Below, in pieces: positions 3,737 to 22,833 of a DNA stretch of 53,361 nucleotides. The notes under the pieces were generated by a model. It made no database searches, was not told the origin of the DNA, and worked only from the letters and a program-made list of their open reading frames with translations. This stretch comes from Candidatus Nanopelagicales bacterium (lineage in GTDB: Bacteria > Actinomycetota > Actinomycetes > S36-B12), in the NCBI GenBank assembly GCA_018609125.1, contig JABAYF010000025.1, forward strand, positions 61,486 through 114,846, written 5' to 3'. Within the stretch, counting starts at the first letter, position 1; the number at the start of each line of letters is the position of its first letter. Made by a program: the position numbers and the translations under genes.

Positions 3737-5391
3737 TGCGTGATCGGTAGTCGACGGTCACGGCCGAAAGCTTTCGCCGAAACTTTGGTTCCCGGCGGAT
3801 ACTGGCGTCGTTTGTATTCGGCGCGATCAACAAGGGTCAGCACCTGTTCGACGAGTGCTGAATCAAAGCCCAACCGGGTGAGTTCTTCGACACCTTGATC
3901 GCCTTCGACATAGTGATCGAGGATACGGTCGAGGACTTCATAGTCGGGAAGGGAATCGGAGTCTCTCTGATCCGGGCGAAGTTCAGCGCTGGGCTCCTTG
4001 GTGATGCTGGACTCCGGAATCGGAGGCACCTCACCGCGCTGCACTGCAACTGAGTTTCGCCAGCGCGCCAACTGCCACACCTGAGTTTTGGATACATCCT
4101 TGATCGGTGCGAAGCCACCCACGGCGTCCCCGTAGATCGTGGAATAGCCGACCGCGAGTTCGCTTTTGTTGCCGGTTGCAAGTACCAGCCGTCCATGCGC
4201 GTTGGACATTGCCATGAGGGTGATTCCGCGAAGACGGGCCTGCAGGTTCTCTTCGGCTAGCCCGGATAGTTCCAGGGTCTGGCCGATCAGGTCGACGAAG
4301 GGCGCGATGCTGACCTGTTCAAAATTCAAGCCGGTGCGCTGTGCAAGATCAGCCGCATCATCTCGGGAATGCTGCGAGGAGTACGCGCTGGGCATTCCGA
4401 TTCCGAACACATGATCAGCGCCGAGCGCGTCACAGGCGATCGCGGCAACCAATGCTGAGTCGATCCCGCCAGAAAGCCCGAGCGTGACGTCGGTGAATCG
4501 GTTTTTGTGGACATAGTCACGCAACCCGGTGACGAGCGCCTCGAATAGTTCTTCCTCGTCGCTGAGTGCAACTGCGATTCCCGGGATCAGATGACGGCCC
4601 TGCGCACGACTGACAGGTGAAGTCATGACCGTGGCTAACTGGGAGGTGACCGGCAGATCAAGATCTACCGTCATTGTGCCCTCCACGAACTGGGGTGCAC
4701 GTGCGATGAGTTGACCGTCTCGGTCGACGACGAGCGAGTCTCCATCAAAGACCAGTTCGTCCTGTCCGCCAACGAGGTTGACATAGGCCAGCGCACACCG
4801 GGCCGAACGGGCGCGCCGGACGCAGAGTTGCAGCCGCTGGTCATCCTTATGCTTCTCGTAGGGAGAACCGTTGAGCACTACCAGCAGGTCAATGCCGTCC
4901 TGCCACGGCTGCTCCGTGGTGTCTGACCAAATGTCTTCACAAATCGCCACGCCCACATTGACACCGGACACGTTGATCGTGAGGGGGTGCGTGCCCGGGG
5001 CGAAGTATCGATACTCATCGAATACTCCGTAGTTGGGAAGGTGGTGCTTGTCGTAGGTCGCTACCACCAGCCCGGCGTGGATGACCACGGCAGTGTTCAG
5101 TGGGCGTCCGTCAGCTGTGGTGCACAAAGTGCCCACGACGACCGTGGTGTCACCTAGTCCAACCTCGACGAGGTCATCGGCGAGCATCTGCAGTTGCCCG
5201 GCCGCTGCTCGCTGAAAACTGGGGCGGAGGGCGAGATCTTCGATGGGATACCCGGTGAGGGCCATTTCCGGGAAGACCAGGAGGTCGACATCGATCGCTG
5301 TTTTAGCCCACTGGACAATCAGGCGGCGATTTTCTGCGAGGTCGCCCACGGTGGGGTTGACCTGGCCGAGTCCCACGCGAATTCGGGTCAC
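3700..5391 (-). CDS. nadE: glutamine-dependent NAD+ synthetase
   Basis: Last step of NAD synthesis: amidates nicotinate adenine dinucleotide using ATP and glutamine. The N-terminal nitrilase-type glutaminase domain (about 1-270) has its Glu-Lys-Cys triad at E42, K115 and C151 (FPEMALTGYP, DKHHLP, VAICEDIW). The C-terminal synthetase domain has the PP-loop SGGIDSALV near residue 305 and ATGNKSE. The GTG start at 5391 gives 563 residues, normal for the two-domain form, and begins directly on the nitrilase fold. TACCCT 8 nt upstream suggests a leaderless transcript. An ATG at 5442 is an alternative start, but it would overlap the divergent glnA2 start. Confidence 0.93.
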   Translation of the reverse strand: MTRIRVGLGQVNPTVGDLAENRRLIVQWAKTAIDVDLLVFPEMALTGYPIEDLALRPSFQRAAAGQLQMLADDLVEVGLGDTTVVVGTLCTTADGRPLNTAVVIHAGLVVATYDKHHLPNYGVFDEYRYFAPGTHPLTINVSGVNVGVAICEDIWSDTTEQPWQDGIDLLVVLNGSPYEKHKDDQRLQLCVRRARSARCALAYVNLVGGQDELVFDGDSLVVDRDGQLIARAPQFVEGTMTVDLDLPVTSQLATVMTSPVSRAQGRHLIPGIAVALSDEEELFEALVTGLRDYVHKNRFTDVTLGLSGGIDSALVAAIACDALGADHVFGIGMPSAYSSQHSRDDAADLAQRTGLNFEQVSIAPFVDLIGQTLELSGLAEENLQARLRGITLMAMSNAHGRLVLATGNKSELAVGYSTIYGDAVGGFAPIKDVSKTQVWQLARWRNSVAVQRGEVPPIPESSITKEPSAELRPDQRDSDSLPDYEVLDRILDHYVEGDQGVEELTRLGFDSALVEQVLTLVDRAEYKRRQYPPGTKVSAKAFGRDRRLPITHHWRETGGSVSG

Positions 5392-5399
5392 ACCGTGGG

Positions 5400-5405
5400 A
5401 GGGTA
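5400..5405 (-). promoter_or_regulatory. candidate -10 element for leaderless nadE
   Basis: Read on the minus strand this is TACCCT followed by 8 nt and the nadE GTG. The same hexamer and spacing occur before lipB. Only 49 bp separate the nadE and glnA2 starts, so there is little room for a leader. Confidence 0.4.
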
Positions 5406-5440
5406 ACTCAACGGAAACATTGACCCGGCAGGATGGTCCC

Positions 5441-6775
5441 ATGGACAAGCAAACTGACTTCGTGCTGCGCACCGTTGAAGAGCGCGATATCCGCTTCGTA
5501 CGGCTGTGGTTCACCGATGTCTTGGGCACCTTGAAGTCTGTCGCCGTCGCCCCCGCTGAGTTGGAGGCGGCTTTCGAAGAGGGCTTGGGATTTGATGGTT
5601 CGGCCATCGAAGGGTTCGCGCGCGTGTCGGAGGCGGACATGCTGGCTAAACCGGATCCTGCCACCTTCGCGGTATTGCCATGGCGATCAGACGCTGCCGG
5701 CGTGGCGCGCATGTTTTGCGATATTCATCTGCCTGACGGATCACCGTCCTATGCCGATCCGCGGTGGGTGCTCCGTCGAGCTCTTGGGCGTGCGGCCGAT
5801 ATGGGCTTCACCTTCTACACGCATCCGGAGGTGGAGTTTTACCTCATGAAGGACACACCCGATAAGGGTCCGCCAGAACCAATCGACCACTACGGCTACT
5901 TCGACAATTCACCACAGGCCATCGGCTATGACTTCCGTCGCCAAGCGATCGCAATGCTTGAAGCGATGGGGATCTCGGTGGAGTTCAGCCACCACGAGGG
6001 TGGCCCTGGCCAGCAGGAAATCGATCTGCGTTACGCCGATGCTTTGTCTACAGCGGACAATTTGATGACTTTTCGACTCGTGGTCAAAGAGGTCGCATTG
6101 GAGCAGGGCATCTACGCCACGTTCATGCCCAAGCCGTTCCGTGATGCCCCGGGATCGGGCATGCACACGCACCTGTCCTTGTTCGAGGGAGACCGCAACG
6201 CATTTTTCGAGGCGGGCGCTGCCTACCAACTGTCACAGGTCGCGCGGTCGTTCATGGCTGGCCTTTTGCACCACGCGCCCGAAATTAGCGCGATTACTAA
6301 TCAATGGGTCAATTCCTACAAGCGCCTTGCCGGTGGTGGCGAGGCGCCAGAGTGGATCTGCTGGGGCCATAACAATCGTTCGGCGTTGGTGCGGGTGCCG
6401 ATGTATAAGCCTTCCAAGGGTAATTCGACCAGGCTGGAGTTTCGCTCGGTTGATAGTGCGTGTAACCCCTATCTCACCTTCGCCGTCATCTTGGCGGCTG
6501 GGCTGAAAGGGATCGAGGAGGGCTATGAATTGCCGGCGGGTAGTGATGATGATGTGTGGGGATTGACGAACGCTGAGCGACGCGCGATGGGCATGAAGGC
6601 CCTGCCGAGCAGTTTGAATCAAGCCATTCAGGCGATGGAACGTTCTGAGCTAGTTGCGGAAACCCTCGGGGAACACGTATTTGATTTTTTCCTGCGCAAC
6701 AAGAAAGCCGAGTGGGAAGAGTACCGGCGCCAGGTCAATTCGTGGGAGATCGATCGGTATCTCCCACTGCTGTGA
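5441..6775 (+). CDS. glnA2: glutamine synthetase GlnA2 type (GSI-alpha-like, not adenylylatable)
   Basis: Type I glutamine synthetase family, 444 residues. It has the N-terminal beta-grasp segment (RFVRLWFTDVLGTLKS), FDGSAIEGFARV, metal and ATP ligands in EVEFYL, HHEGGPGQQEIDLRY and GSGMHTHLSL, and the NRSALVRVP and RLEFRS active-site strands. At the position of the adenylylated Tyr of GlnA1 it has Trp373 (DDDVWGLT), so GlnE cannot modify it there. In mycobacteria and streptomycetes the paralogue next to glnE is GlnA2, and this one has the same position. AGGA lies 8-9 nt before the ATG. True glutamine synthesis versus a gamma-glutamylation role is not decided by sequence. Confidence 0.92.
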   Translation: MDKQTDFVLRTVEERDIRFVRLWFTDVLGTLKSVAVAPAELEAAFEEGLGFDGSAIEGFARVSEADMLAKPDPATFAVLPWRSDAAGVARMFCDIHLPDGSPSYADPRWVLRRALGRAADMGFTFYTHPEVEFYLMKDTPDKGPPEPIDHYGYFDNSPQAIGYDFRRQAIAMLEAMGISVEFSHHEGGPGQQEIDLRYADALSTADNLMTFRLVVKEVALEQGIYATFMPKPFRDAPGSGMHTHLSLFEGDRNAFFEAGAAYQLSQVARSFMAGLLHHAPEISAITNQWVNSYKRLAGGGEAPEWICWGHNNRSALVRVPMYKPSKGNSTRLEFRSVDSACNPYLTFAVILAAGLKGIEEGYELPAGSDDDVWGLTNAERRAMGMKALPSSLNQAIQAMERSELVAETLGEHVFDFFLRNKKAEWEEYRRQVNSWEIDRYLPLL

Positions 6776-9756
6776 ATCAGAGTCGAGCGCTTTCGCTGTC
6801 TGCGCGGCTCGCTCGGGCGGGCAGTCAAAACTCGGCTATCCACGCACCTATCGTGGCCGGCTGGGACTTAACGCGAGATGACACTGAACGCCTGCTCAGT
6901 GTCATCGCCTCGGCAGCAGACCCGGACTGGGCCCTGGATGCATTGGCTGAACTCTCAGTCGATGATCGAGAAGCGCTTTTCTTCAGCCCCGATTCTCTCT
7001 TTAGATTTGTCACACTCGCGGGAGCTTCGAAGCCTCTGGGCATTCATTTGGTCCGGCATCCGGAACAGATCCGCGCACTCGCCGCAGTTACCGCTGAACC
7101 GCAGACCTCGGTTGAGTACCGCCAGGTTCTGCTCGCCGCGGTTGGGGCTGATCCGAAGGCTGAAGCACCTACGGCAACCGATTCTTCAGATGCCACCCTA
7201 AACGCTTTGCGCGTCGCCTATCGCGGTGCTCTCGCCTGTATCGCCGTGCGTGACCTGGTGCACGCTGTCGTGGTTGATCAGACCGCGGCCGAACTCGCCG
7301 ATCTGACGGATGCAGCGCTAGAGGCTGGCCTTGCCATTGCCCGTTGCGATGTTTCCCCCGACGCAACTCCATGCCGGTTCGCAGTCATCGCAATGGGCAA
7401 GTGTGGCGGCCGAGAACTGAACTATATCAGCGATGTCGACGTCGTGTTCGTTGCGGAGTCAGCGGCAATTGATGAAAGTAGTGAAGAAGAAACTGATGCG
7501 CTCCGAACGGCGACGCAATTAGCCATCGGGTTGATTAGAGCCTGCAGCACACAGACCTCGGAAGGCTCGCTGTGGGACGTCGATGCCGCGCTACGGCCGG
7601 AAGGCAAGGCTGGTGCGCTCGTGCGCACAGTGGCGTCACACCGTGGCTACTACCTGCGCTGGGCATCCACGTGGGAGTTTCAGGCACTCCTCAAGGCTCG
7701 CTTCGCGGCGGGGGAGAAAGCCCTGGGTGATGAATACGTGGACACCATGAGTGAGTTTGTTTGGGCAGCGGCGGACCGAGACGGTTTCGTCGCGGATGTA
7801 CAGGGCATGCGCCGACGTGTGGAAGACAATATTCCAGCACATGAAGCAGACCGTGAGATAAAACTTGGACGCGGTGGTCTGCGAGATGTGGAATTCAGCG
7901 TTCAACTCCTGCAGTTAGTGCACGGACGCACTGACATGATGCTGCGCTCACCCACGACGTTGAGTGCGTTGGAAGCCCTGGCAGTGTGGGGATACGTTGG
8001 ACGCGAAGACGGTGCGGTTTTAGCCGAGGCCTACCGCTTCTTGCGAACGCTTGAACATCGTATCCAACTGCAGCACCTGCGTCGCACTCATGTCATGCCC
8101 GAGGAAAAAACAGACCTTCGCCGGTTGGGCCGTTCGATGGGCTTGCGGCAAGACCCGATTGAACAGTTGACGCGGGCTTGGAAGCAGCACACGCGGGAAG
8201 TACGACGGATTCATGAGAAACTGTTTTACCGGCCGCTACTCCAGGCGGTCGCTCGGCTTAATGCACCTGATGCGCGACTAAGCGTGGCCGCTGCTGAACA
8301 GAGACTTTCCGCGCTTGGCTATATCGACTCGCAAGGAGCATTGCGTCACCTCGAGGCGCTCACCTCCGGAGTTTCTCGCCGCGCGGCGATACAGCGGACA
8401 CTCCTGCCGGTGCTGCTTGACTGGTTCGCACGCGGTCCGGATCCAGATGCAGCGCTTCTGGGTTTTCGTCGACTCAGTGAAGATTTGGGATCAACTCCAT
8501 GGTACCTGCGGCTATTGCGCGATGAATCCGTTGCAGCCGAACGAATGTCGGAGTTAATGTCTAGTTCACGCTACGCGACAGATCTTCTCTTGCGTTCACC
8601 AGATGCGTTGCCCATGCTCGCTGAAGACAGTGGTCTCCTTCCTCGACGTCGCGAACAGTTGATGACTGAAATGCTGGCGTCCACCGCGCGGCAGATATCG
8701 GCATCAGACGCCGTCGCTTTTATTCGCGCGGTGCGCAGACGCGAGCTCTTCCGGTTGTCCGCCGGCAATATTTTGGGACTCACGAGCACCGTTCCGGCCA
8801 TGCAGGGACTCACCGCTGTGACCGAGGCGGCGTTGGCAGCGGCGCTGGACGCATCAATGCGGACCGTGGCGTCCGAAAGAGGTGAGCCTTTTCCCACGCG
8901 CGTAGCGATCATTGCACTGGGTCGTTTCGGCGGAGCTGAGCTTGGTTTCGGTTCTGATGCTGATGTGTTGTTCGTGCATGACCCTCTCCCGGGGGTGGCG
9001 GAGTCTGCGGCAACCGCCGCCGCACTTGCCGCGATCAACGAAATGCGTCGTTTGCTCTCGTTACCATCACCGGATCCGGAGTTGATTATTGATGCGGATC
9101 TGCGACCGGAAGGCCGCCAGGGCCCACTCGTGCGAACGCTAGCCTCCTATGCGGCCTACTACGCCCGATGGTCGGCACCTTGGGAAGCCCAGGCGCTACT
9201 TCGAGCACGTGCGGTGGCTGGCGATGAAGCGCTGGGGCATGCTTTTACGCATTTGATTGATCCGCTGCGCTGGCCGGCAGCGGGTATCGGAGACGACGCT
9301 TTGATGCAGATGCGCAGGCTCAAGGCCCGGATGGAATCTGAACGCCTACCACGAGGTGCTGATCCGACCCTGCACACGAAGTTGGGTCGCGGAGGATTGT
9401 CAGATGTGGAGTGGGTCGCGCAACTGATCCAATTACGCCACGCGGCGCATAACGCGTCCCTACGCACGACATCGACCCTTCGGGTACTCGAAGGGTCCGT
9501 GGCGGCTGATCTGATGGATGCGTCCGATGCAGATGTACTGACCGATGCATGGTTACTGGCCACGCGGGTGCGCAATGCCATTGTTTTAGCATCGGGCAAG
9601 GTCAGCGATGTTGTCCCGGCCGGCCCGCCAGATTTGGTTGGGGTGAGGCATCTGCTTGGTTACCGACCAGGCCAGGGTGGAGTTTTCCTGGAGGACTATC
9701 GCCGCATCACCCGACGGGCGCGTCAGGTGATGGAACGGCTGTTTTACGAGCAGTAA
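6772..9756 (+). CDS. glnE: bifunctional glutamine synthetase adenylyltransferase/deadenylase
   Basis: Adenylylates and deadenylylates glutamine synthetase according to nitrogen status. The protein has 994 residues and two nucleotidyltransferase domains: an N-terminal one with AMGKCGGRELNYISDVDVVF near 207 and a C-terminal one with ALGRFGGAELGFGSDADVLF near 713. Both keep the paired Asp signature, and each is followed by a helical domain with KLGRGGLRDVEF/KLGRGGLSDVEW. The GTG start overlaps the glnA2 stop by 4 nt (GTGA), indicating translational coupling. Its substrate is expected to be GlnA1 (10168-11592), which keeps the target Tyr, rather than its operon partner. Confidence 0.95.
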   Translation: MNQSRALSLSARLARAGSQNSAIHAPIVAGWDLTRDDTERLLSVIASAADPDWALDALAELSVDDREALFFSPDSLFRFVTLAGASKPLGIHLVRHPEQIRALAAVTAEPQTSVEYRQVLLAAVGADPKAEAPTATDSSDATLNALRVAYRGALACIAVRDLVHAVVVDQTAAELADLTDAALEAGLAIARCDVSPDATPCRFAVIAMGKCGGRELNYISDVDVVFVAESAAIDESSEEETDALRTATQLAIGLIRACSTQTSEGSLWDVDAALRPEGKAGALVRTVASHRGYYLRWASTWEFQALLKARFAAGEKALGDEYVDTMSEFVWAAADRDGFVADVQGMRRRVEDNIPAHEADREIKLGRGGLRDVEFSVQLLQLVHGRTDMMLRSPTTLSALEALAVWGYVGREDGAVLAEAYRFLRTLEHRIQLQHLRRTHVMPEEKTDLRRLGRSMGLRQDPIEQLTRAWKQHTREVRRIHEKLFYRPLLQAVARLNAPDARLSVAAAEQRLSALGYIDSQGALRHLEALTSGVSRRAAIQRTLLPVLLDWFARGPDPDAALLGFRRLSEDLGSTPWYLRLLRDESVAAERMSELMSSSRYATDLLLRSPDALPMLAEDSGLLPRRREQLMTEMLASTARQISASDAVAFIRAVRRRELFRLSAGNILGLTSTVPAMQGLTAVTEAALAAALDASMRTVASERGEPFPTRVAIIALGRFGGAELGFGSDADVLFVHDPLPGVAESAATAAALAAINEMRRLLSLPSPDPELIIDADLRPEGRQGPLVRTLASYAAYYARWSAPWEAQALLRARAVAGDEALGHAFTHLIDPLRWPAAGIGDDALMQMRRLKARMESERLPRGADPTLHTKLGRGGLSDVEWVAQLIQLRHAAHNASLRTTSTLRVLEGSVAADLMDASDADVLTDAWLLATRVRNAIVLASGKVSDVVPAGPPDLVGVRHLLGYRPGQGGVFLEDYRRITRRARQVMERLFYEQ

Positions 9757-9769
9757 CCGACCTTCGCCC

Positions 9770-9775
9770 TACACT
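9770..9775 (+). promoter_or_regulatory. candidate -10 element for the leaderless membrane protein gene
   Basis: TACACT followed by 6 nt and the ATG at 9782. The TANNNT-N6-8-start layout recurs at several genes in this window and fits leaderless actinobacterial transcripts. Confidence 0.4.
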
Positions 9776-9781
9776 GCGCTC

Positions 9782-10069
9782 ATGACTCTCTGGGCAGTTG
9801 TTATCGGGTGGGTGGGTTCCGGTCTGATCCTGCTGGCCTATGCGTTGGTCGCAACCCGACGTTTTTCGTCGCACAGCGTTGCTTTTCATGTGGTGACACT
9901 GCTGGGTAGCCTTGGCTTGACGGTGTATGCCGTTACCATTTCGGCCTGGCCCAACGTCGCACTGAACGGTGTCATGGGGGTGGTCGCCATGGTGGGCACC
10001 TTCATGGCGATTCGAGTCGTCCGGCACCTTAAGGCAGAAGCCGACCGAATCACGCAGACTTCAGGCTGA
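9782..10069 (+). CDS. small three-helix membrane protein (CBU_0592-like family)
   Basis: A 95-residue protein with three predicted membrane helices (about 5-23, 34-52, 56-77) and a short charged C-terminal tail. The pattern (GWVGSGLILLAYAL, then a Gly/Leu helix ending in a conserved WP-N segment) resembles the CBU_0592-type family of unknown function, assigned from memory. It lies between glnE and glnA1 with a probable leaderless promoter. Location alone does not show a role in nitrogen control. Confidence 0.65.
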   Translation: MTLWAVVIGWVGSGLILLAYALVATRRFSSHSVAFHVVTLLGSLGLTVYAVTISAWPNVALNGVMGVVAMVGTFMAIRVVRHLKAEADRITQTSG

Positions 10070-10078
10070 AACGCAAGA

Positions 10079-10112
10079 TGGGGGTGAGCCACCCGAAGAT
10101 GACCCACCCCCA
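10079..10112. terminator. hairpin between convergent genes
   Basis: TGGGGGTG (10079-10086) pairs perfectly with CACCCCCA (10105-10112) around an 18-nt loop that can itself rearrange into a small GGGTG/CACCC hairpin. It lies just downstream of the plus-strand membrane protein gene and before the minus-strand glnA1 stop, so it could serve both strands. No T-run follows. Confidence 0.45.
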
Positions 10113-10167
10113 CCTAACCCGGTCCGCGAGGCGATGCGAACCGAGAAACGGGTAGTTGTGCGCTGGA

Positions 10168-11592
10168 TCAGATGTCGTAGTACATCTCAAACTCGTGCGG
10201 GTGCGGGCGCAACCGGATGGGGTCAACCTCGTTGACTCGCTTCCAATCCACCCAGGTTTCAATCAGGTCGGAGGGGAACACATTTCCGGCCTGGAGGTAG
10301 TCGTTATCGGCTTCCAGGGCTGCCAGCGCTGCCGGTAGCGAGTCAGGTACCTGGGCGATGTTGGCCAGTTCCTCAGGGGGTAACTCGTACAGATCCTTGT
10401 CCACTGGATTGGGCGGCTCGATCTTGTTCTTGATGCCGTCGATTCCGGCCATGAGCATGGCCGAGAAAGCCAAATACGGGTTGGAGGAGGGATCGGGAAC
10501 CCGGAATTCGACTCGCTTCGCCTTGGGCGAAGTGCCGGTAACCGGAATGCGAATGCAGGCAGAGCGGTTGCGTGCGGAGTAAACAAGATTGACCGGTGCT
10601 TCGTAGCCGGGTACGAGTCGGTGGTAGGAGTTCATGGTGGGGTTGGTGAATGCCAGCAGCGACGGGGCATGTGCCAGCAGACCGCCGATGTACCAGCGGG
10701 CCATGTCCGACAGTCCGCCGTAGCCCGTTTCGTCATAGAACAGGGGCTCCCCGCCCTTCCACAGTGACTGGTGGCAGTGCATGCCTGAACCGTTGTCACC
10801 GAAGATCGGCTTAGGCATGAACGTCACGGTTTTCCCGTTGGCCCACGCTACGTTCTTGACCACGTACTTAAACATCATGAGTTCGTCAGCTGCCAGCCGC
10901 AAACTGTTGAACCGGTAGTTGATTTCACTCTGACCAGCGGTGCCCACCTCGTGGTGAGCGCGCTCCACAGACAGGCCTACCTGTTCCAGTGCGACGACCA
11001 TCTCATCTCGCAGGTCGGCGTAGTGGTCGACCGGCGGCACCGGGAAGTAGCCGCCCTTGAATCGGGTCTTGTAGCCGAGGTTGCCGCCCTCTTCAACGCG
11101 GCCGGTGTTCCAGGCTGCCTCAATTGAGTCGATGTAGTAGTAGCCGGCATTTGCCTTGGTCTCGAATCGGACGTCATCGAAAATATAAAATTCAGCCTCC
11201 GCCCCGAAGAAAACGGTGTCAGCGATGCCGGTGGAAGACAGGTAGGCCTCAGCCTTGGCGGCGATATTGCGTGGGTCCCGACCGTACGGCTCATCGGTGA
11301 ACGGGTCTCGAATGGAATGGTTGATCACCAGCGTCTTTTCGATGCGGAATGGATCCAGGAACGCGGTGGTGGGGTCTGGGATGAGCTTCATATCCGATTC
11401 GTGAATCGCCTGGAAACCTCGGATGGAGGAGCCATCAAACATGAGCCCGTCGGTGAATGCGGCGTCAGCAAAGGCAGCGGCGGGCATCGTAAAGTGCTGC
11501 ATCACTCCGGGAAGATCAACAAATCGCACATCAATGAATCGCACATCTTCGTTGCGGATGTAAGCCAAGACTTCATCGGCACTTGTAAACAT
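10168..11592 (-). CDS. glnA: glutamine synthetase type I, adenylylation-regulated (GSI-beta)
   Basis: Main ammonium-assimilating enzyme: glutamate + NH3 + ATP to glutamine. The 474-residue protein has [60 protein letters not shown] and the NRSACIRIP strand. The adenylylation site [10 protein letters not shown] is intact with target Tyr402, matching the nearby glnE. The start is the ATG at 11592, with GGAGGA 6-7 nt upstream; a further in-frame ATG at 11604 overlaps that Shine-Dalgarno and is less likely. A GlnR-type operator lies about 110-145 bp upstream, which suggests induction under nitrogen limitation. Confidence 0.97.
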
Positions 11593-11700
11593 TTCTTCCT
11601 CCATGAACTCACCGACCGTGGTGAGATGTTCGCCTCTTCAGCACCCGGGAGTGCTGTGGCAGGGTGGTTACCCTGATGTAGACGACCTTAGGCCTGCCCG

Positions 11701-15153: not shown

Positions 15154-16047
15154 TCATTCGCGAATTTCTTGACGAGCAAGCCGTTGACGCACGATATAAA
15201 ACAGCACAACGGCGATTCCACCTATGGCAATTCCACCGGCCAGTTCGGCGGGTGCACCGAGTAGTCGCACCGCAATCGCAGCGAGAATCACCATCAGCAG
15301 CCATCGCAGCGCTAGCCCGTCGTAGCGACTCGACATGCGTGCACCGATCCATACGCCTGGAATTTGACCGACCAATAAGGATGCGGTCACTGCCCAATCC
15401 ACCCCGCCGATACCGGCATGAGCGATGGCACCGACCATGAGCATGGGCACCGCTTGGGTGAGGTCGGTACCCACCAAAACACTGGGGCGCAGTAGCGGAT
15501 AGAGCAGAAGCATTGTGGTGACGACAAGTGAGCCTGAACCTACGCTGGTGGTTCCCACCAAAATGCCGACGATAAGGCCGAGGAGCACGGTGGGCACAAT
15601 CTTGACCGGCGCCTCAATGCCTTCCAAGACGGCTGGACCACGCAGGCGTTCAGCGCGCGCGGATACCAGTGCGCGACCGAGCATGGCTACCAGAGCCAGA
15701 ATGAGAACGATTCCGATCCACACGCGCACGGTTTCTTCCACACCTTCGGTGTCTGCGACCTGAGAAAAGATTGCGGTGCCGATAAGAACGCCCGGAATCG
15801 AACCGGCCGATAGCCAGATGACAATGCCCCAGTGCACGGTGCGATGACGAATGTGGACGAAGGCACCGACAGGTTTCATGACCGCCGATGCGACGACATC
15901 TGAACTCACTGCAGCTGCGGCTGGCACGTTAAAGAACAGCACCAGCATGGGGGTCACCAGGGCAGCACCGCCCATGCCGGTGAGACCGACCATGACTCCA
16001 GCGAAGAGACCACCGGCGCTGAGCCCAGGGTCAAGCCATTCCCACAT
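15154..16047 (-). CDS. TSUP (TauE/SafE/YfcA) family membrane permease
   Basis: A 297-residue protein with about eight hydrophobic helices arranged as two repeats. Each repeat begins with the family's Gly-rich motif ([15 protein letters not shown] near 22 and [17 protein letters not shown] near 166). TSUP proteins carry small organic or sulfur-containing anions such as sulfoacetate, taurine or sulfite. It starts 6 nt after ureC on the same strand, so it is very likely co-transcribed with the agmatine deiminase-urease-like genes and may serve their substrate or product. The real substrate is unknown. Confidence 0.85.
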
Positions 16048-16053
16048 CGCGAT

Positions 16054-17718
16054 CTACCAGAAATGTAAGCGAGACAGAGGTGTGTGCGTTACCGGTGCCA
16101 TCGTCAGGGCCTCGCCGCGCCATGTCACGCGTGGTTGCTGCATCGGTGATGTTGCAGCAACGACCTTGACCGGCCCGGCAAGACCATGACGAACCATGTC
16201 GGTGTTTCGCACCTGGCGACACCCGCGCACGGTGAGAGTGCGGCGGGCCGTCCCCGGTGCGCTTTCGGCCACCGCAATCTGATTGCTAAGCAGGTAGGAC
16301 AAGTCGCTGGGTCCGGATGCGTACGCGCCAAATTGCTCAGCGATGATCAGCGGTTCGGCCGAATCGATACTGGCGTTGGGGTCACCGGTCTGGCCCCAGA
16401 CAGGGAATCCACTTTTGAGAATGAGTTGTGGTTTGGCTGCGAACCGTTCAGGTTGCCACAGCACGATATCAGCGATGTAGCCCTCAGCTAGGCGTCCTAG
16501 TTCATGGGAAATTCCGTGGGTAATCGCTGGGTTAATCGTGATTTTCGCGAGGTAACGAAGAATGCGTTCATTGTCGTTATCTGATACCTCCGCGGGTGAG
16601 TCGTCACCCTTCATGACAGCTGCGAGAGCAAAGGTGCGCCACCATGTTTCACCTGCTCGGCCCATGCCCTGTGCGTCCGAGGACGTGATAGGTATGACCC
16701 CAAGATCGTGCAGCCGATTTTCCGCTGCCATCGTTGCCGAACGGACGCGTGCCCTGGCAATACGCACGTCGGATTCACGATCGGCATGCATTGCGTGAGT
16801 GAGCATAATCATGTCGACATGTTCGTCCACCGCATTGATTCCGTAGGGCAGGGTAGGGTTCGTTGAGGAGGCTAAAATATTGTCGTGGCCAGCCAGACTC
16901 AGCACGTCCGGCGAGTGTCCACCGCCGCAGCCCTCAACGTGATAGGCGTGGATGACTCGGCCGTCGAGAACCGCGATGGTGTCACTGGCCGAGAGCGACT
17001 CATTGAGACTGTCGGTGTGTACGGCTACCTGCACATCGGCTTCGTCAGCGGCCCGTAACGCGGTGTCGAGCGTGCGCAGCGTCGTGCCGGTGTCTTCGTG
17101 AACCTTGAAGCCGCACACGTGCGCTTCGACGGCTTCTCGAGTCACCGCTTCGTGGGAGGTGGAACCCCGACCAAGAAGTCCGATGTTGATGGCAAAATTA
17201 TCCATGGTTCGGTAGGCCTGGCGCAACATACGCGCTGACCCGATTCCCACACCCCACACCGGTCCGGTCTCTTGTGCGATCACCGTTGTGATGCCACTGG
17301 AGATCAGCGAGTCAAAAACCCTGGGGCTCAACGAGTGAACGTGTGTATCGATCCCTCCGGGAGTTGCAATCAATCCATCGGCATCAATAACCACGGTCCC
17401 AGATCCCACCACGACGTCAATGTTGTTCGTCGTGTCGGGATTGCCTGCCTTTCCGACGCCAGAAATGCGACCATCCTTGATGCCGATGCTGGCCACGCGA
17501 ACACCGGTGATCGGATCGAGCACGATGGCATTGGACAGCACCACGTCACATGATTGGGTCGTCGGGATTGCCTTCAGCCCGATGCCATCACGCCCTGTCT
17601 TGGCAAAGCCAACGCGGAATTCGTCGTGGGTATCGGCAACTCGGTCATCGATGTGTAGAGCCAAACCGGTGCCGCCGAGCACGACGGTGTCCCCGGCTCG
17701 CGGGCCGTAGACGCTCAT
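16054..17718 (-). CDS. ureC: urease alpha subunit-like amidohydrolase, variant
   Basis: Urease alpha-type dinickel amidohydrolase of 554 residues. Nickel ligands are all present: H126/H128 (GIDTHVH), the carbamylated Lys K205 (FKVHED), H207, H234, H260 and D348; the active-site acid H308 and R324 are also kept. Differences from the Klebsiella enzyme: flap Cys319 is Thr307, Ala363 is Gly351, and the stretch after TGP (around 155-162) is divergent and four residues shorter. The genuine C-terminus (RLHFW) is intact. It overlaps ureAB by 4 nt. ureD/E/F/G are absent nearby. It may be a true urease or an enzyme for a larger ureido substrate. Confidence 0.88.
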   Translation of the reverse strand: MSVYGPRAGDTVVLGGTGLALHIDDRVADTHDEFRVGFAKTGRDGIGLKAIPTTQSCDVVLSNAIVLDPITGVRVASIGIKDGRISGVGKAGNPDTTNNIDVVVGSGTVVIDADGLIATPGGIDTHVHSLSPRVFDSLISSGITTVIAQETGPVWGVGIGSARMLRQAYRTMDNFAINIGLLGRGSTSHEAVTREAVEAHVCGFKVHEDTGTTLRTLDTALRAADEADVQVAVHTDSLNESLSASDTIAVLDGRVIHAYHVEGCGGGHSPDVLSLAGHDNILASSTNPTLPYGINAVDEHVDMIMLTHAMHADRESDVRIARARVRSATMAAENRLHDLGVIPITSSDAQGMGRAGETWWRTFALAAVMKGDDSPAEVSDNDNERILRYLAKITINPAITHGISHELGRLAEGYIADIVLWQPERFAAKPQLILKSGFPVWGQTGDPNASIDSAEPLIIAEQFGAYASGPSDLSYLLSNQIAVAESAPGTARRTLTVRGCRQVRNTDMVRHGLAGPVKVVAATSPMQQPRVTWRGEALTMAPVTHTPLSRLHFW

Positions 17719-18500
17719 GCGTGAAACATTCCGTCGGATTGCGCCCGCCGTTGCTGCAGGGTTGTCAAGGCAGCACCTGCGGCAAGTTCTGCTCGGTTAA
17801 GATCGACCGAGGTTGGGTCACCAACGAATGTGAGTCCGAACGAGTCGAGATAGCCGCAGCGTCGAAGATCAGCTATTGCGCGGGCCCGCACCGCCGGATC
17901 ATCGACAGGGCCATCAATTAACCCGGAGTTGCCGATGATGATGCGATCACCGGTGATGGGCACCATTCCGATTTCGATTATTTCGCCGGGTGCGAGCAAT
18001 AACGTGTCGCCCGTGGGCAGTGCTAAACGCATGCCCAGCGCGCTTTCGCGATCTAGGCGAATTCGGGGATTGACCTCGGCAAGGTGCATGTGTGACGTGA
18101 TTCCGATGTCGATGTCGGCGCAGTTGCGTAGCTGGATCTGTGCGACTGATTCCGGAGCTGTCAGATCTTGTTGTTGAAGGAGTTCATCGTTGGAACCGGC
18201 ACCAAAGGGGTTGGTCACGACAACAAGTCGCGTTCCATCATCGAAGCGTGCTTCCACCTTGATCTGGGTCACGATTCCGGGCACTTCGGGTAGCACGTCT
18301 TCAGAAGACAGGACAGAGCGTGCATCCTGGCGCACCGTGGCAAGGTCACGTCCATCTCGTGCCCACTCACAAATCTGGTGGGCGATGAGCGCGGTGGCTT
18401 CGGGAACATTGAGGCGTAAACCCCGGTCACGACGTTGCTGGGCAAGTTGTGCCTGGGTGAACAGCAGTAGGTGGTCAGCCTCGCTGGGTGTCAGGGGCAT
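17715..18500 (-). CDS. ureAB: fused urease gamma-beta subunit
   Basis: A 261-residue fusion. Residues 1 to about 100 are UreA-like (PLTPSEADHLLLF, RRDRGLRLNVPEATALI, VEARFDDGTRLVVVTNPF). Residues about 125-200 are UreB-like (GITSHMHLAEVNPRIRLDR, GMRLALPTGDT, GPVDD). A C-terminal extension of some 55 residues follows that standard UreB lacks. Gamma-beta fusion is known from Helicobacter UreA and some actinobacteria. It would form the structural scaffold for the alpha subunit. It starts one base within the stop of the agmatine deiminase gene (TGATG) and overlaps ureC, so all three are translationally coupled. Confidence 0.88.
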   Translation of the reverse strand: MPLTPSEADHLLLFTQAQLAQQRRDRGLRLNVPEATALIAHQICEWARDGRDLATVRQDARSVLSSEDVLPEVPGIVTQIKVEARFDDGTRLVVVTNPFGAGSNDELLQQQDLTAPESVAQIQLRNCADIDIGITSHMHLAEVNPRIRLDRESALGMRLALPTGDTLLLAPGEIIEIGMVPITGDRIIIGNSGLIDGPVDDPAVRARAIADLRRCGYLDSFGLTFVGDPTSVDLNRAELAAGAALTTLQQRRAQSDGMFHA

Positions 18501-19522
18501 CAGATCACCTGCGGCTGCTGCTGGGTGATGCAGTGAATACCGCCACCGAGGGCGAAGATGTGCCGGGCGTCAACGCGGACGATTTGGCGGCCGGGGTACA
18601 CCCTGGCCATGATGTCAGCCGCTTCATCGTCGTGGGGGTCGTTGAATGCACACACGATGACCCCGCCGTTGACGACGTAGTGATTGATGTAGCTGTAGTC
18701 CACGAACCCGATCTCATCTCGCAGTGTTGCCGGAGCGGGTACATCGACAACCGAGAACCCTTCGCCGGTCAAGAACTGTCGAATCTGCTGGGAAACGGCG
18801 TGGTCTGGATGGTCTGGATTGCGCTGGTCATGCAGAAGGACTGACCCGTCTGGAGCAAAACACGCAACGATATCGACATGGCCGCGAGTGCCAAACTCGT
18901 CGTAATCTCGCGTGAGGCCTTGTGGGAGCCATACGACCCGGTTGACACCGAGTTTGTTCTTAAGCTCAGCCTCCACATCGTGTCTGGTCCACGTGCCGTT
19001 GCGCTGTGGATCTCGCTGAACCGTCTCAGTGATGAGTGCCGTCCCGCGTCCGTCTACATGGATGCCACCTCCTTCGTTGACAAGGGGTGATCGACTGACG
19101 CCCACTCCCGCTGCATGACACACGGCAGCGGCCACTTCATCATCGTTCTTCCAACGTGCCCAGGACTGCTGTCCCCAGCCATTGAACGTCCAGTCAATGC
19201 CATGCACGGACGGTGTGCCGCCGCCATCGTTGATGACGAAGGTCGGTCCCGTGTCGCGCACCCACGAATCGTCCAACGGCAGCGGCAATACGGTGATGGG
19301 GTGCGGGGCATCCACCTGCACGTAGGTGCGCACAGAGGATTCGACGGCCGGGTCTACCAAGAGGGTGACGGGTTCGAACATGGCAACGGCCTGCGCGACC
19401 CCCGCCCACGCCGTCCACGACTGTGCCGCCATCCGTGCCTTATCGCCCAGGGCGTAGGCAGCGCACGGCCATGCCATCCAGGTGCGCTCGTGTGGTTCCC
19501 ACTCGGCAGGCATGCGCAGCAT
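18500..19522 (-). CDS. aguA: agmatine deiminase family enzyme (guanidino-group hydrolase)
   Basis: Family enzymes convert agmatine to N-carbamoylputrescine and NH3 through a Cys-amidino intermediate. The 340-residue protein carries the expected residues: D90 (DDSWVRDTGP), E150 (NEGGGIHVDG), H215 and D217 (GHVDIVACF) and the nucleophile C331 (GGGIHC). The N-terminus MPAEWEPHERTWMAWP is typical. It heads the minus-strand operon with ureAB, ureC and TSUP. CATACT 7 nt before the ATG suggests a leaderless transcript. No N-carbamoylputrescine amidase (aguB) is in the window, which makes the urease-like partner notable. Other guanidino substrates are possible. Confidence 0.9.
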   Translation of the reverse strand: MLRMPAEWEPHERTWMAWPCAAYALGDKARMAAQSWTAWAGVAQAVAMFEPVTLLVDPAVESSVRTYVQVDAPHPITVLPLPLDDSWVRDTGPTFVINDGGGTPSVHGIDWTFNGWGQQSWARWKNDDEVAAAVCHAAGVGVSRSPLVNEGGGIHVDGRGTALITETVQRDPQRNGTWTRHDVEAELKNKLGVNRVVWLPQGLTRDYDEFGTRGHVDIVACFAPDGSVLLHDQRNPDHPDHAVSQQIRQFLTGEGFSVVDVPAPATLRDEIGFVDYSYINHYVVNGGVIVCAFNDPHDDEAADIMARVYPGRQIVRVDARHIFALGGGIHCITQQQPQVI

Positions 19523-19535: not shown

Positions 19536-19574
19536 CCCGCTTCGTGAGGGTCGTTGAAGCACGACCTCAGGCAA

Positions 19575-19590
19575 ATACCCCCGGGAGTAT
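19575..19590 (+). promoter_or_regulatory. CsoR/CstR-like palindromic operator
   Basis: ATACCCCCGGGAGTAT is palindromic at 14 of 16 positions. C-rich/G-rich arms flanked by ATA/TAT are the style of operators for CsoR-family repressors, whose CstR branch senses persulfide and controls sulfide-oxidation genes. It covers the expected -35 position for the TATAGT box at 19603, so binding would block transcription of the sulfide:quinone oxidoreductase gene. The regulator gene is not in the window. Confidence 0.45.
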
Positions 19591-19602
19591 ATGGATGAGC
19601 CC

Positions 19603-19608
19603 TATAGT
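19603..19608 (+). promoter_or_regulatory. -10 box of the sulfide:quinone oxidoreductase promoter
   Basis: TATAGT, one base from the consensus TATAAT. The -35 region 17 bp upstream falls in the palindrome at 19575-19590. Transcription would begin near 19615, leaving a leader of about 45 nt with a GGAGG Shine-Dalgarno 6 nt before the ATG at 19661. Confidence 0.5.
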
Positions 19609-19660
19609 GGGGTTAATCGACCACGTCATTACACGTGTTTCCTGCGCCTGGAGGTTTGCC

Positions 19661-20857
19661 ATGTCTACCCACTATCAGATCGTCATCATCGGCGGCGGGT
19701 CAGCCGGCATTACGGTTGCCGCTCGGTTGAAGCGGTCCGGAGCTCGCGATGTTGCGGTCATTGAACCCTCCGATGTGCACTACTACCAGCCGTTGTGGAC
19801 TTTGGTGGGCGGTGGGCGGGCCAAGGATGCCGAAAGTGTGCGACCCATGGCCTGGGTGATGCCTCGAGGCGTGACGTGGATTCATGATGCGGCGAGTGGA
19901 ATTGATCCTGAGGCTAACTCCGTGCAGCTAGCCAGCGGCACGACTGTCACTTACGATCGACTCATCGTCGCCCCTGGAATTCAGTTGAATTGGAACGGAA
20001 TCCCGGGTCTGGCTGACGCTATGGGCAAGGATGGCGTTTCGTCGAATTATGACTACTACCTGGCACCCAAGACCTGGGAAAACGTGCAGCGCACGCGCTC
20101 AGGAACCGCGGTATTCCACATGCCTGCCGGGCCGATCAAATGCGCTGGCGCGCCACAAAAAATCGCGTACCTGGCCGCTGATTTCTGGCGTGAACAGGGT
20201 GTGCTGGACAACATTCGCAAGGTCATGATCTTGCCCACGCCAGGAATGTTCGGGGTCAAGGTGTGGTCGGACGTGTTGGTGGATGTTGCGGCCCGGTACG
20301 GATTCGAGGTTCACCTCAACAGTGTGGTCACGAGCATGGACGGTGCGGCCAACACCATGGAGGTCAAGAACAACGAAACCGGTGAAACGCAGACCCTGCC
20401 GTATAACTTCGCCCACATGGTGCCCCCGCAGAGCGCACCAGACTGGCTGGCAAAGACGTCTCTGGTGGATCCGGCTAGTCCCTTCGGCTACATGGCAGTT
20501 GACAAGCACACTCTGCAGAGCACGATCTATCCCGAGGTGTTCGGTCTTGGAGATTGCACCAATTCACCAAACTCCAAAACCGGTGCTGCAATCCGTAAAC
20601 AGGCACCGGTAGTGGTAGATAACGTGATGGCATCGCTGAAGGGCGGTGTGGGCGCTGGTCACTACGACGGTTATGCCTCCTGTCCCATCACCACTAGCCG
20701 CAAGAAGTTGCTTCTGTGCGAGTTCGATTACGACCTCAATCCGCGCCCCTCACTCAAGGGTGTCAATCAGATGAAGGAGATCACGGACTTCAACCGGTTC
20801 AAGAAGGTGGGCTTGCCGCGCCTGTACTGGGACCTCATGTTGAAGGGGCGCGTTTAG
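19661..20857 (+). CDS. sqr: sulfide:quinone oxidoreductase, type II
   Basis: Membrane-associated flavoprotein that oxidises sulfide and passes electrons to quinone, forming persulfide. The 398-residue protein has the FAD motif IIGGGSAGITVAARL at residue 9, HYYQPLWTLVGGG, a second FAD segment VFGLGDCTNSPNSKTGAAIRKQ, and the two redox cysteines C161 (GPIKCAGAPQK) and C341 (YASCPITTSRKK) that mark the eukaryote-like type II enzymes. GGAGG 6 nt upstream fixes the start. It is followed after 30 bp by an acetaldehyde dehydrogenase gene, an unusual partner. It probably serves sulfide detoxification in aerobic growth. Confidence 0.9.
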   Translation: MSTHYQIVIIGGGSAGITVAARLKRSGARDVAVIEPSDVHYYQPLWTLVGGGRAKDAESVRPMAWVMPRGVTWIHDAASGIDPEANSVQLASGTTVTYDRLIVAPGIQLNWNGIPGLADAMGKDGVSSNYDYYLAPKTWENVQRTRSGTAVFHMPAGPIKCAGAPQKIAYLAADFWREQGVLDNIRKVMILPTPGMFGVKVWSDVLVDVAARYGFEVHLNSVVTSMDGAANTMEVKNNETGETQTLPYNFAHMVPPQSAPDWLAKTSLVDPASPFGYMAVDKHTLQSTIYPEVFGLGDCTNSPNSKTGAAIRKQAPVVVDNVMASLKGGVGAGHYDGYASCPITTSRKKLLLCEFDYDLNPRPSLKGVNQMKEITDFNRFKKVGLPRLYWDLMLKGRV

Positions 20858-20887
20858 GCAGCGATTTTGCCGGGAGAGGATGTGCCC

Positions 20888-21814
20888 ATGGCCCTTCGCT
20901 GCGCAATCATTGGTTCAGGCAATATCGGCACCGACCTCATGATCAAAATGCTGCGCTCGGACACCCTCAACCTGACGGCGTTGGTTGGCATTGACCCTGA
21001 CAGCGACGGCCTGAAGCGGGCAAAATCACTCGGCTTGCAAGCACCACATGATGGGCCGGACTGGGTGCTGAAGCACGCTCATGAGTTCGACATGATTTTT
21101 GACGCAACCAGCGCCTACGTACACGTGCGCTATCACCACAAGTATCAAGACGCCGGTATCACCGCCATTGATCTCACTCCTGCTGCCCGCGGACCCAAAG
21201 TGATCGCCGCGGTCAATATGCACGAGCATCTGGATGCGCCCAACATCAATCTGGTCACCTGCGGGGGGCAAGCCACAACACCCATGGTGTTCGCCGTGAG
21301 ACGTGCACTGAACGCCCTTCCCTATGCCGAAATGGTGTCGACGGTGGCCAGTCGCTCAGCCGGGCCTGGCACTCGACAAAATATTGATGAGTTCACCAAG
21401 ACGACATCAATGGCGCTGCGTGAAATTGGCGGCGCCGAGCATGCCAAGGCCATCATCGTGCTAAATCCGGCCGACCCACCGATCATGATGCGCAACACGG
21501 TATTCGCTGGAATTCCCGAGGGATCTGATCATGATGCGGTCATCAACTCGGTCTACGACATGGAAAAGCAGGTGACATCATTCGTGCCCGGGTATCGCTT
21601 GAAAAATCCTCCGGTGATTGAGGAAGGTCCTTTCCACACACCCGGTGGGGTTGTGCCGCATCGCGCAGTGATTTTGCTGGAGGTTGCCGGTGCTGGTGAC
21701 TATCTGCCGGAGTACGCGGGAAACCTCGACATTATGACGGCGGCGGCGATGCGGGTGGGCGAGGCTGTGGCAAAGCATCGGGTTACCGGTTTGAGCGAGC
21801 CGGCGCAGTTATGA
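20888..21814 (+). CDS. mhpF: acetaldehyde dehydrogenase (acylating)
   Basis: Oxidises acetaldehyde (or propanal) to acetyl-CoA (propanoyl-CoA) with NAD+ and CoA; works in a complex with the aldolase encoded next. The 308-residue protein has the Rossmann motif IIGSGNIGTDL, FDATSAYVH, the catalytic Cys in NLVTCGGQATTP, and SRSAGPGTRQNIDEF. The ATG at 20888 follows GGAGAGG with good spacing; the in-frame ATG at 20867 lies before that site. It overlaps the aldolase gene by 4 nt. Confidence 0.95.
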   Translation: MALRCAIIGSGNIGTDLMIKMLRSDTLNLTALVGIDPDSDGLKRAKSLGLQAPHDGPDWVLKHAHEFDMIFDATSAYVHVRYHHKYQDAGITAIDLTPAARGPKVIAAVNMHEHLDAPNINLVTCGGQATTPMVFAVRRALNALPYAEMVSTVASRSAGPGTRQNIDEFTKTTSMALREIGGAEHAKAIIVLNPADPPIMMRNTVFAGIPEGSDHDAVINSVYDMEKQVTSFVPGYRLKNPPVIEEGPFHTPGGVVPHRAVILLEVAGAGDYLPEYAGNLDIMTAAAMRVGEAVAKHRVTGLSEPAQL

Positions 21815-22833
21815 GTACAACAGCAGATTTTCGACTTATTGACTCCACGCTGCGTGACGGCTCCCACGCAATTAGTCACCAGTACTACGCCGAAGATGTC
21901 ATGAAGATCGTGCAGGGACTCGATGCAGCGGGTGTGCAGGTGATCGAGATTGCTCACGGTGATGGACTTGGTGGATCCAGTTTCAACTACGGGTTTTCCG
22001 CGGTTCCAGAGAAGGATCTGATCGCCCAGGCATGTGAAGTTTCAGGTAACGCCAAAATTGCGTGCCTGCTACTGCCTGGCATTGGGCTTGCGGATGACTT
22101 ACGCGAGGTGAAGGAACTCGGTGTTGGCATGGCTCGCATAGCCACGCACTGCACCGAAGCTGATATTTCCGAACAGCACATCAAGGTCGCCAAAAGCCTG
22201 GGCATGGAGACCATCGGCTTTTTGATGATGTCGCACATGAACTCACCGGAGGGACTCGCCGAGCAGGCACTGCTCATGCAGTCTTACGGCGCGGACTCCA
22301 TTTATATCGCCGACTCTGCCGGTGCCATGACCACCGAGGATGTACGCCGTCGAGTGGGCGCGCTCGTGGCTGCCCTGGATGTTCCGGTCGGCGTTCATGC
22401 GCACAACAATTTATCTATGGCGGTGGCTAATTCAATTGCGGCCTATGAAGAAGGTGCGGCCAACCTGGACGGTACATCGGCGGGCCTGGGAGCTGGTGCG
22501 GGAAACTGCCCGACCGAAATTCTCGCAGCGGTCAGTGACCGATACGGAATCATGACCGGCGTGGATCCGCTCAAGCTGATGGATCTTGCTGAAGAAATTG
22601 TGCGTCCGCTGATGCCGCGCCAGCAGGTGATTGATCGTGCCGGACTATTGCTGGGCTACGCTGGTGTCTACGGGTCATTCTTGTTGCACTCTCAGCGCGC
22701 AGCGGAGCGGTACAACGTTTCCCAGGCAGAGATCTTGCTTGAGCTTGGTCGACGCAAAGTGGTGGGTGGTCAAGAAGACATGATTATTGACGTGGCGTTA
22801 GAACTGGCGGCAATGCACGCTCAAGAAGAATGA
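21811..22833 (+). CDS. mhpE: 4-hydroxy-2-oxovalerate aldolase
   Basis: Splits 4-hydroxy-2-oxopentanoate (or its six-carbon homologue) to pyruvate and an aldehyde that is channelled to the dehydrogenase. The 340-residue protein has the TIM-barrel start IDSTLRDGSHAISHQY, with metal-binding residues there and in GVHAHNNLSMAVANS, followed by GTSAGLGAGAGNCPTE and the C-terminal DmpG-type domain. The ATGA overlap with the dehydrogenase gene is normal for this pair. The usual partners of meta-cleavage pathways (hydratase, ring-cleavage dioxygenase, hydrolase) are not in the window, so the precursor is unknown. Confidence 0.95.
   Translation: MSTTADFRLIDSTLRDGSHAISHQYYAEDVMKIVQGLDAAGVQVIEIAHGDGLGGSSFNYGFSAVPEKDLIAQACEVSGNAKIACLLLPGIGLADDLREVKELGVGMARIATHCTEADISEQHIKVAKSLGMETIGFLMMSHMNSPEGLAEQALLMQSYGADSIYIADSAGAMTTEDVRRRVGALVAALDVPVGVHAHNNLSMAVANSIAAYEEGAANLDGTSAGLGAGAGNCPTEILAAVSDRYGIMTGVDPLKLMDLAEEIVRPLMPRQQVIDRAGLLLGYAGVYGSFLLHSQRAAERYNVSQAEILLELGRRKVVGGQEDMIIDVALELAAMHAQEE

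Follow-up and report, generated by a model that had tools for sequence, protein, structure and literature searches.

A candidate two-step agmatine degradation operon with a variant urease-type enzyme in a Nanopelagicales bacterium

Introduction

Agmatine is converted to putrescine by several known routes. In the AguA-AguB pair, the first enzyme is homologous to the deiminase of the operon described here, and the second catalyzes the reaction that we propose below for a urease-type complex (UreAB-UreC), the hydrolysis of N-carbamoylputrescine (NCP), although AguB is a cysteine nitrilase and the proposed second enzyme is a urease-fold metalloenzyme. In 2025 another NCP-hydrolyzing enzyme, AguY, was described in Shewanella and in the actinobacterium Microterricola gilva (584 aa), after having been picked by its adjacency to aguA (PMC12283126). 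The AguA-AguY case follows the same gene-neighbor logic as the present locus, likewise in Actinomycetota, and our deiminase groups with deiminases that lie next to AguY-like amidases; AguY itself, an amidase-signature protein, is unrelated to UreAB-UreC. That report makes no mention of urease (PMC12283126), and in the open-access literature we found nothing tying a urease-type enzyme to NCP hydrolysis, or a urease to non-ribosomal peptide synthetase (NRPS) clusters.

The other system to be compared is the conventional nickel urease (UreABC together with UreDEFG, for example in Klebsiella aerogenes), which shares with the present complex its subunits, its fold (TM about 0.9), every metal ligand, the carbamylated lysine and residues H219, H320, R336 and D360. 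The present complex differs in that no accessory genes were found in its host genome, the loop near the urea site has a new sequence and has lost 4 aa, changes are seen at A167 and A363, H321 is lost and the genes are linked to a deiminase. The iron urease of Helicobacter mustelae (UreA2B2) works without nickel and without the nickel accessory proteins, and is a precedent for the missing UreDEFG. This protein (PDB 3qga) is, by a narrow margin, the top PDB sequence match of our UreC (455 vs 453 bits), but it is a urease, it is only 41% identical, and we know of no deiminase partner for it. Finally, ure(AB)C clusters in Streptomyces have been counted as ureolysis genes (PMC5489568), and these most likely represent pairs of the type seen here (a UreAB fusion plus UreC, with no accessory genes); in the part of that paper available to us they are treated as urea hydrolysis and a deiminase link is not reported. 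The urease fold is already known, and what is new here is the proposed function and the accessory independence.

The operon and its host genome

The window, the whole 53,361-nucleotide stretch analyzed here, contains four tightly packed open reading frames, all on the minus strand. The first gene (18500-19522) codes for a guanidino (agmatine-type) deiminase of the pentein fold (340 aa; PF04371, 337 bits, E 1.6e-100), and is followed by a fused urease-type gamma-beta subunit, UreAB (17715-18500; 261 aa; PF00547, 116 bits, and PF00699, 71 bits), a variant urease-type alpha subunit, UreC (16054-17718; 554 aa; PF00449, 96 bits, and PF01979, 160 bits), and a TSUP/TauE-family permease as the last gene (15154-16047; 297 aa; PF01925, 143 bits, E 1.5e-41). 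UreAB overlaps the deiminase gene by 1 nt, UreC overlaps UreAB by 4 nt and the TSUP gene starts 6 nt past UreC, so that the four-gene coupling and the families described in an earlier note on this DNA are confirmed from the reading frames and the profile matches. Divergent from the operon (19544-22833, plus strand) are consecutive genes for a sulfide-quinone-reductase-like flavoprotein, an acetylating acetaldehyde dehydrogenase and a 4-hydroxy-2-oxovalerate aldolase.

The host genome is actinobacterial (2.15 Mb in 31 contigs, 97.3% complete), and the closest relatives of its UreC come from aquatic Actinobacteria MAGs, several of them named Nanopelagicales. Gene absence was judged by family (profile) searches across all contigs. 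PF00449 gave a single match, inside the operon, which means that there is only one ureC, and no UreD or UreG was found anywhere in the genome; the earlier note had named a genome with ureDEFG and no other ureC as evidence against its reading, and the host lacks both ureD and ureG. No AguB exceeded the curated cut-off (top score 99 bits vs 410) and no putrescine carbamoyltransferase did so either (best 256 vs 500 bits), the latter match being compatible with an ornithine carbamoyltransferase. The absence of accessory genes and of aguB, noted before for the window, therefore extends to the whole genome with respect to UreD, UreG and AguB. The same searches returned no arginase/agmatinase and no NicO nickel transporter; the deiminase family has a single member, and a PotB-like permease is encoded away from the operon. 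Since neither AguB nor putrescine carbamoyltransferase scored above its cut-off, the urease-like complex would be the sole recognized consumer of NCP among the families searched, if the deiminase makes this compound.

The deiminase

The nearest PDB matches of the window deiminase are agmatine deiminases, although it scores 260 bits against the agmatine deiminase equivalog (TIGR03380), under the cut-off of 381.8. Taking the roles of the residues from PMC6447857, the catalytic Cys, His and Asp and the guanidine-binding Asp are all present (C331, H215, D217 and D90). D85, W87, D90, W116, H215 and D217 are kept in 36/36 deiminases of the cluster examined, and C331 in 35/36. In the plant enzyme, D220 is the Asp that binds the terminal amine of agmatine (PMC6447857); where plant enzymes carry this residue, the window deiminase has an insert before GHVD, DYDEFGTRGHVD, which is common to its close relatives with amidase or nitrilase partners. 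The score below the agmatine deiminase cut-off and this insert leave room for a different guanidino substrate.

The urease-type subunits

UreAB scores 235 bits against NF009671, slightly below the cut-off of 243, and UreC reaches 614 bits against NF009686 and 522 bits against the urease alpha equivalog (TIGR01792), whose cut-off is 680. The AlphaFold model of UreC (mean pLDDT 80.7, pTM 0.88) matches ureases with TM values of 0.88-0.90, so it has a urease fold and not the nitrilase or amidase-signature fold that homology to AguB or AguY would entail.

The active site was compared in an alignment (K. aerogenes numbering) of 14 conventional UreC proteins with 85 proteins of the clade to which the window UreC belongs, window included (group A), and with group B, a family (f13) represented here by incomplete genomes only. 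H134, H136, K217 (the carbamylated lysine), H219, H246, H272, H320, R336 and D360 are invariant in 85/85 group A proteins, and the window UreC keeps every metal ligand as well as K205, H207, H308, R324 and D348. The urea site, in contrast, is rewritten. In urease structures, the main-chain oxygens of A167 and A363 bind the NH2 groups of urea. The segment containing A167 is 34 aa long in all 85 group A proteins, 38 aa in 12/14 conventional ones and 27 aa in group B; A167 itself is replaced by Val, Leu or Ile throughout group A, A363 is Gly in 81 of the 85 proteins, position 321 is rarely or never His, and the C319 position is variable. In the window UreC these positions are I159, G351, A309 and T307, respectively, and the loop has 34 instead of 38 aa. 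A substrate alkylated at one of the urea nitrogens would presumably require a reshaped A167/A363 region of this kind.

Distribution and phylogeny of the variant UreC

In a sample of 149 genomes of the phylum, UreC was present in 30 and UreG in 21, and the genomes with UreC and lacking UreG were exactly those with the variant UreC alone, the one exception being G124, where a partial UreC sits at the end of a contig. Scanning GTDB genomes yielded 80 relatives of the window UreC. Among the loci examined, no UreD, UreE, UreF or UreG clearly adjoined the variant genes, while the 15 conventional urease loci had an adjoining UreG or, in a single locus truncated at the end of its contig, UreF. Of 35 variant-bearing genomes searched, host included, both UreG and UreD are missing from 20; the others are large genomes, from Streptomyces, Nonomuraea, Kribbella and comparable genera, that separately encode a conventional urease. 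The locus survey and the UreG search bear out the statement of the earlier note that Streptomyces carries deiminase/urease-like loci beside a separate conventional urease.

In the UreC tree, a branch with a support of 99 splits conventional ureases from group A, group B and one Streptomyces plasmid sequence. One locus (L040, in G074), which diverges basally on the conventional side with a long branch, combines a fused UreAB, a UreC in which 319 is Val, 321 is not His and 363 is Gly, and adjoining UreG and UreD. Five loci (L062, L067, L074, L075 and L122) come from MAGs titled 'Bifidobacterium breve'; those included in the UreC tree group with aquatic Actinobacteria, and the titles are probably wrong.

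Neighborhoods of the urease-like genes

Gene calls in the compared loci were made in this analysis, and contig ends conceal part of the neighbors. A deiminase lies within about 5 kb of UreC in 34/82 group A loci, in four arrangements (upstream or downstream on the same strand, upstream divergent and downstream on the opposite strand), and counted on a thinned UreC tree this linkage changes at least seven times; near the conventional ureases no deiminase was seen (0/15 loci examined). Conservation of the pair in relatives, which had been posed as a test, therefore holds far beyond the genus. Next to the pair, TSUP genes also occur in L061 (87% over the portion available) and in a distant group B locus, L036 (47%), the latter with the order TSUP, universal stress protein, deiminase, UreAB, UreC. 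TSUP proteins elsewhere transport sulfur compounds. In many loci the urease-like genes have Pot-type polyamine ABC genes as neighbors, whether a deiminase is present (L082, L089) or not. Streptomyces loci carry a divergent NCS1 permease, and in L172 and L173 a permease of the same family is found 5' of the paired deiminase and amidase genes.

Many members of the clade have no linked deiminase. An Amidohydro_3 protein (PF07969, about 535 aa) is encoded in 31/82 group A loci (for example L070:7673-9283 and L107:7692-9257), as well as in L039 and L056, and never in one of the 34 loci with a deiminase; by the counts this exclusion is striking, but it is only a lead, because it amounts to 2-3 informative pairs once relatedness is counted. 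Amidohydro_3 could perhaps supply a ureido substrate in another way, or take the place of the deiminase. As so many members are accompanied by Amidohydro_3 or other enzymes, the clade may have several substrates.

Other contexts were also observed. In L104 and L110, a peptide-type ABC transporter and a molybdenum hydroxylase of the xanthine-dehydrogenase type are encoded immediately 5' of UreAB-UreC, which suggests a heterocyclic or ureido substrate. In L105, L107, L109 and L130, B12-dependent diol-dehydratase-type genes with a reactivase are on one side of UreAB-UreC, and a C45 hydrolase, an FAD amine/amino-acid dehydrogenase and Pot ABC genes on the other. On plasmids of Streptomyces, Embleya and Kitasatospora (L052-L055), UreAB and UreC (50-52% identical to the window UreC) are part of a conserved NRPS-type cluster without UreDEFG, which in L052 has the order adenylation, condensation, phosphotransferase, 528-aa hypothetical protein, UreAB, UreC, 2OG-Fe oxygenase; a ureido hydrolase of a natural-product pathway is a possible role for these subunits.

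Exchange of partners seen from the deiminase

To avoid picking loci by their UreC, 396 genomes of the phylum were searched with the deiminase alone and the best 30 loci were taken. In these, 12 deiminases are adjacent to a variant UreC (window included), 9 to a nitrilase, 4 to an amidase and 5 to none of them (2 of these 5 loci stop at a contig end), and no locus has two partner types. The top profile of the partner nitrilases is TIGR03381 (N-carbamoylputrescine amidase); one of them passes its cut-off (420.2 vs 410.25 bits) and the others score 172-217 bits, with 172 bits for the nitrilase next to the closest relatives of the window. The two partner amidases tested (577 and 580 aa; NF005127, 1043 bits) fit AguY in size, family and position.

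In the deiminase tree the partner type switches at least six times. The window deiminase falls within a set of 10 (support 97/99) whose partners are 4 UreC, 4 amidases and 2 nitrilases, and together with that of L061 it is sister (93/82) to those partnered by amidase (4) and nitrilase (2). The urease-like genes thus adjoin an agmatine-type deiminase in alternation with an AguB-type nitrilase and an AguY-like amidase. That no deiminase has more than one partner type, swapped among UreC, nitrilase and amidase, indicates that the urease-like complex fills the slot of the NCP hydrolase; the simplest account would be that three unrelated enzymes occupy one slot, hydrolyzing the ureido product of the deiminase.

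Proposed pathway and alternatives

On these grounds the operon is probably a two-step agmatine degradation unit in which UreAB-UreC hydrolyzes NCP. The two-step route from a guanidino compound to an amine, put forward in the earlier note, gains support from the replacement of the urease-like pair by nitrilase or amidase elsewhere and from the recurrence of Pot-type ABC genes. The operon, the conserved metal site, the altered pocket, the lack in the host genome of UreD, UreG and other recognized second-step enzymes, the recurrent linkage and the exchange of partners are read from the sequences, and we infer the reaction, agmatine as the substrate, which metal is bound and what the transporter does. 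The Cys-dependent deiminase would convert agmatine and water to NCP and ammonia. In UreAB-UreC, a dinuclear metallohydrolase of urease fold with a remodeled pocket, a metal-bound hydroxide would then attack the ureido carbon, releasing putrescine and carbamate, or ammonia and N-carboxyputrescine, either pair yielding putrescine, CO2 and NH3 on decay. Loading of the metal center would be independent of UreDEFG, and the TSUP permease would import or export some substrate or product.

The same two-step logic could apply to another guanidino/ureido pair (a guanidino acid, a sulfonate or a modified agmatine), a reading that we consider rather unlikely, and which draws on the sub-threshold score of the deiminase and its altered substrate-end loop, on the sulfur compounds carried by TSUP proteins elsewhere, and on the occurrence of clade UreC with Amidohydro_3, with the molybdenum hydroxylase and peptide-type ABC transporter, or in plasmid NRPS clusters (Streptomyces); the clade is probably not restricted to a single substrate. 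Agmatine is favored because other deiminases of this type, which carry the insert too, have an AguY-like amidase or an AguB-type nitrilase as their partner, because Pot-type transporters recur and because the core agmatine-binding residues are intact.

It is improbable that the complex is an ordinary urease hydrolyzing urea, with the deiminase an incidental neighbor or one only co-regulated for nitrogen. The urease fold and the full set of metal ligands would agree with this, and the flap Cys is not strictly essential in K. aerogenes urease, of which C319A/S variants exist in the PDB. Streptomyces ure(AB)C clusters have, moreover, been counted for ureolysis (PMC5489568). However, the host has no UreG or UreD, the deiminase yields no urea, the linkage is recurrent and is absent from the conventional urease loci (0/15 examined), the urea-contact loop is rewritten in all members, and NCP hydrolases replace the pair elsewhere. 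That the complex is catalytically inactive or vestigial can be given hardly any credence: the known maturation proteins UreD and UreG were indeed not found in the host genome, but the catalytic residues are invariant in 85 divergent members, the reading frames are intact and the operon is conserved.

Beyond the operon, it seems an even call whether the entire Actinomycetota-wide clade of the urease family, whose members usually carry a urease annotation, is something other than urease, namely accessory-independent, possibly non-nickel hydrolases of N-substituted ureas, acting in agmatine breakdown and in other ureido pathways, including natural-product clusters. If NCP is indeed hydrolyzed to putrescine by a urease-like enzyme, this would be a further, previously unreported agmatine route, another enzyme would join those known from agmatine to putrescine, and the urease fold would gain a natural substrate besides urea; free-living bacteria would then be able to assemble a urease-type dinuclear site without the help of UreDEFG. 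Since urease is the annotation given to many ure(AB)C pairs in Streptomyces and in freshwater Actinobacteria, ureolysis predictions based on ureC counts in metagenomes would then be inflated.

Elsewhere in the window, two glutamine-synthetase-like genes (5243-6775, plus strand, and 10168-11604, minus strand) are located on either side of a GlnE-like gene (1014 aa), and this cluster (5243-11604) is a few kb away from the putative ammonia-releasing operon.
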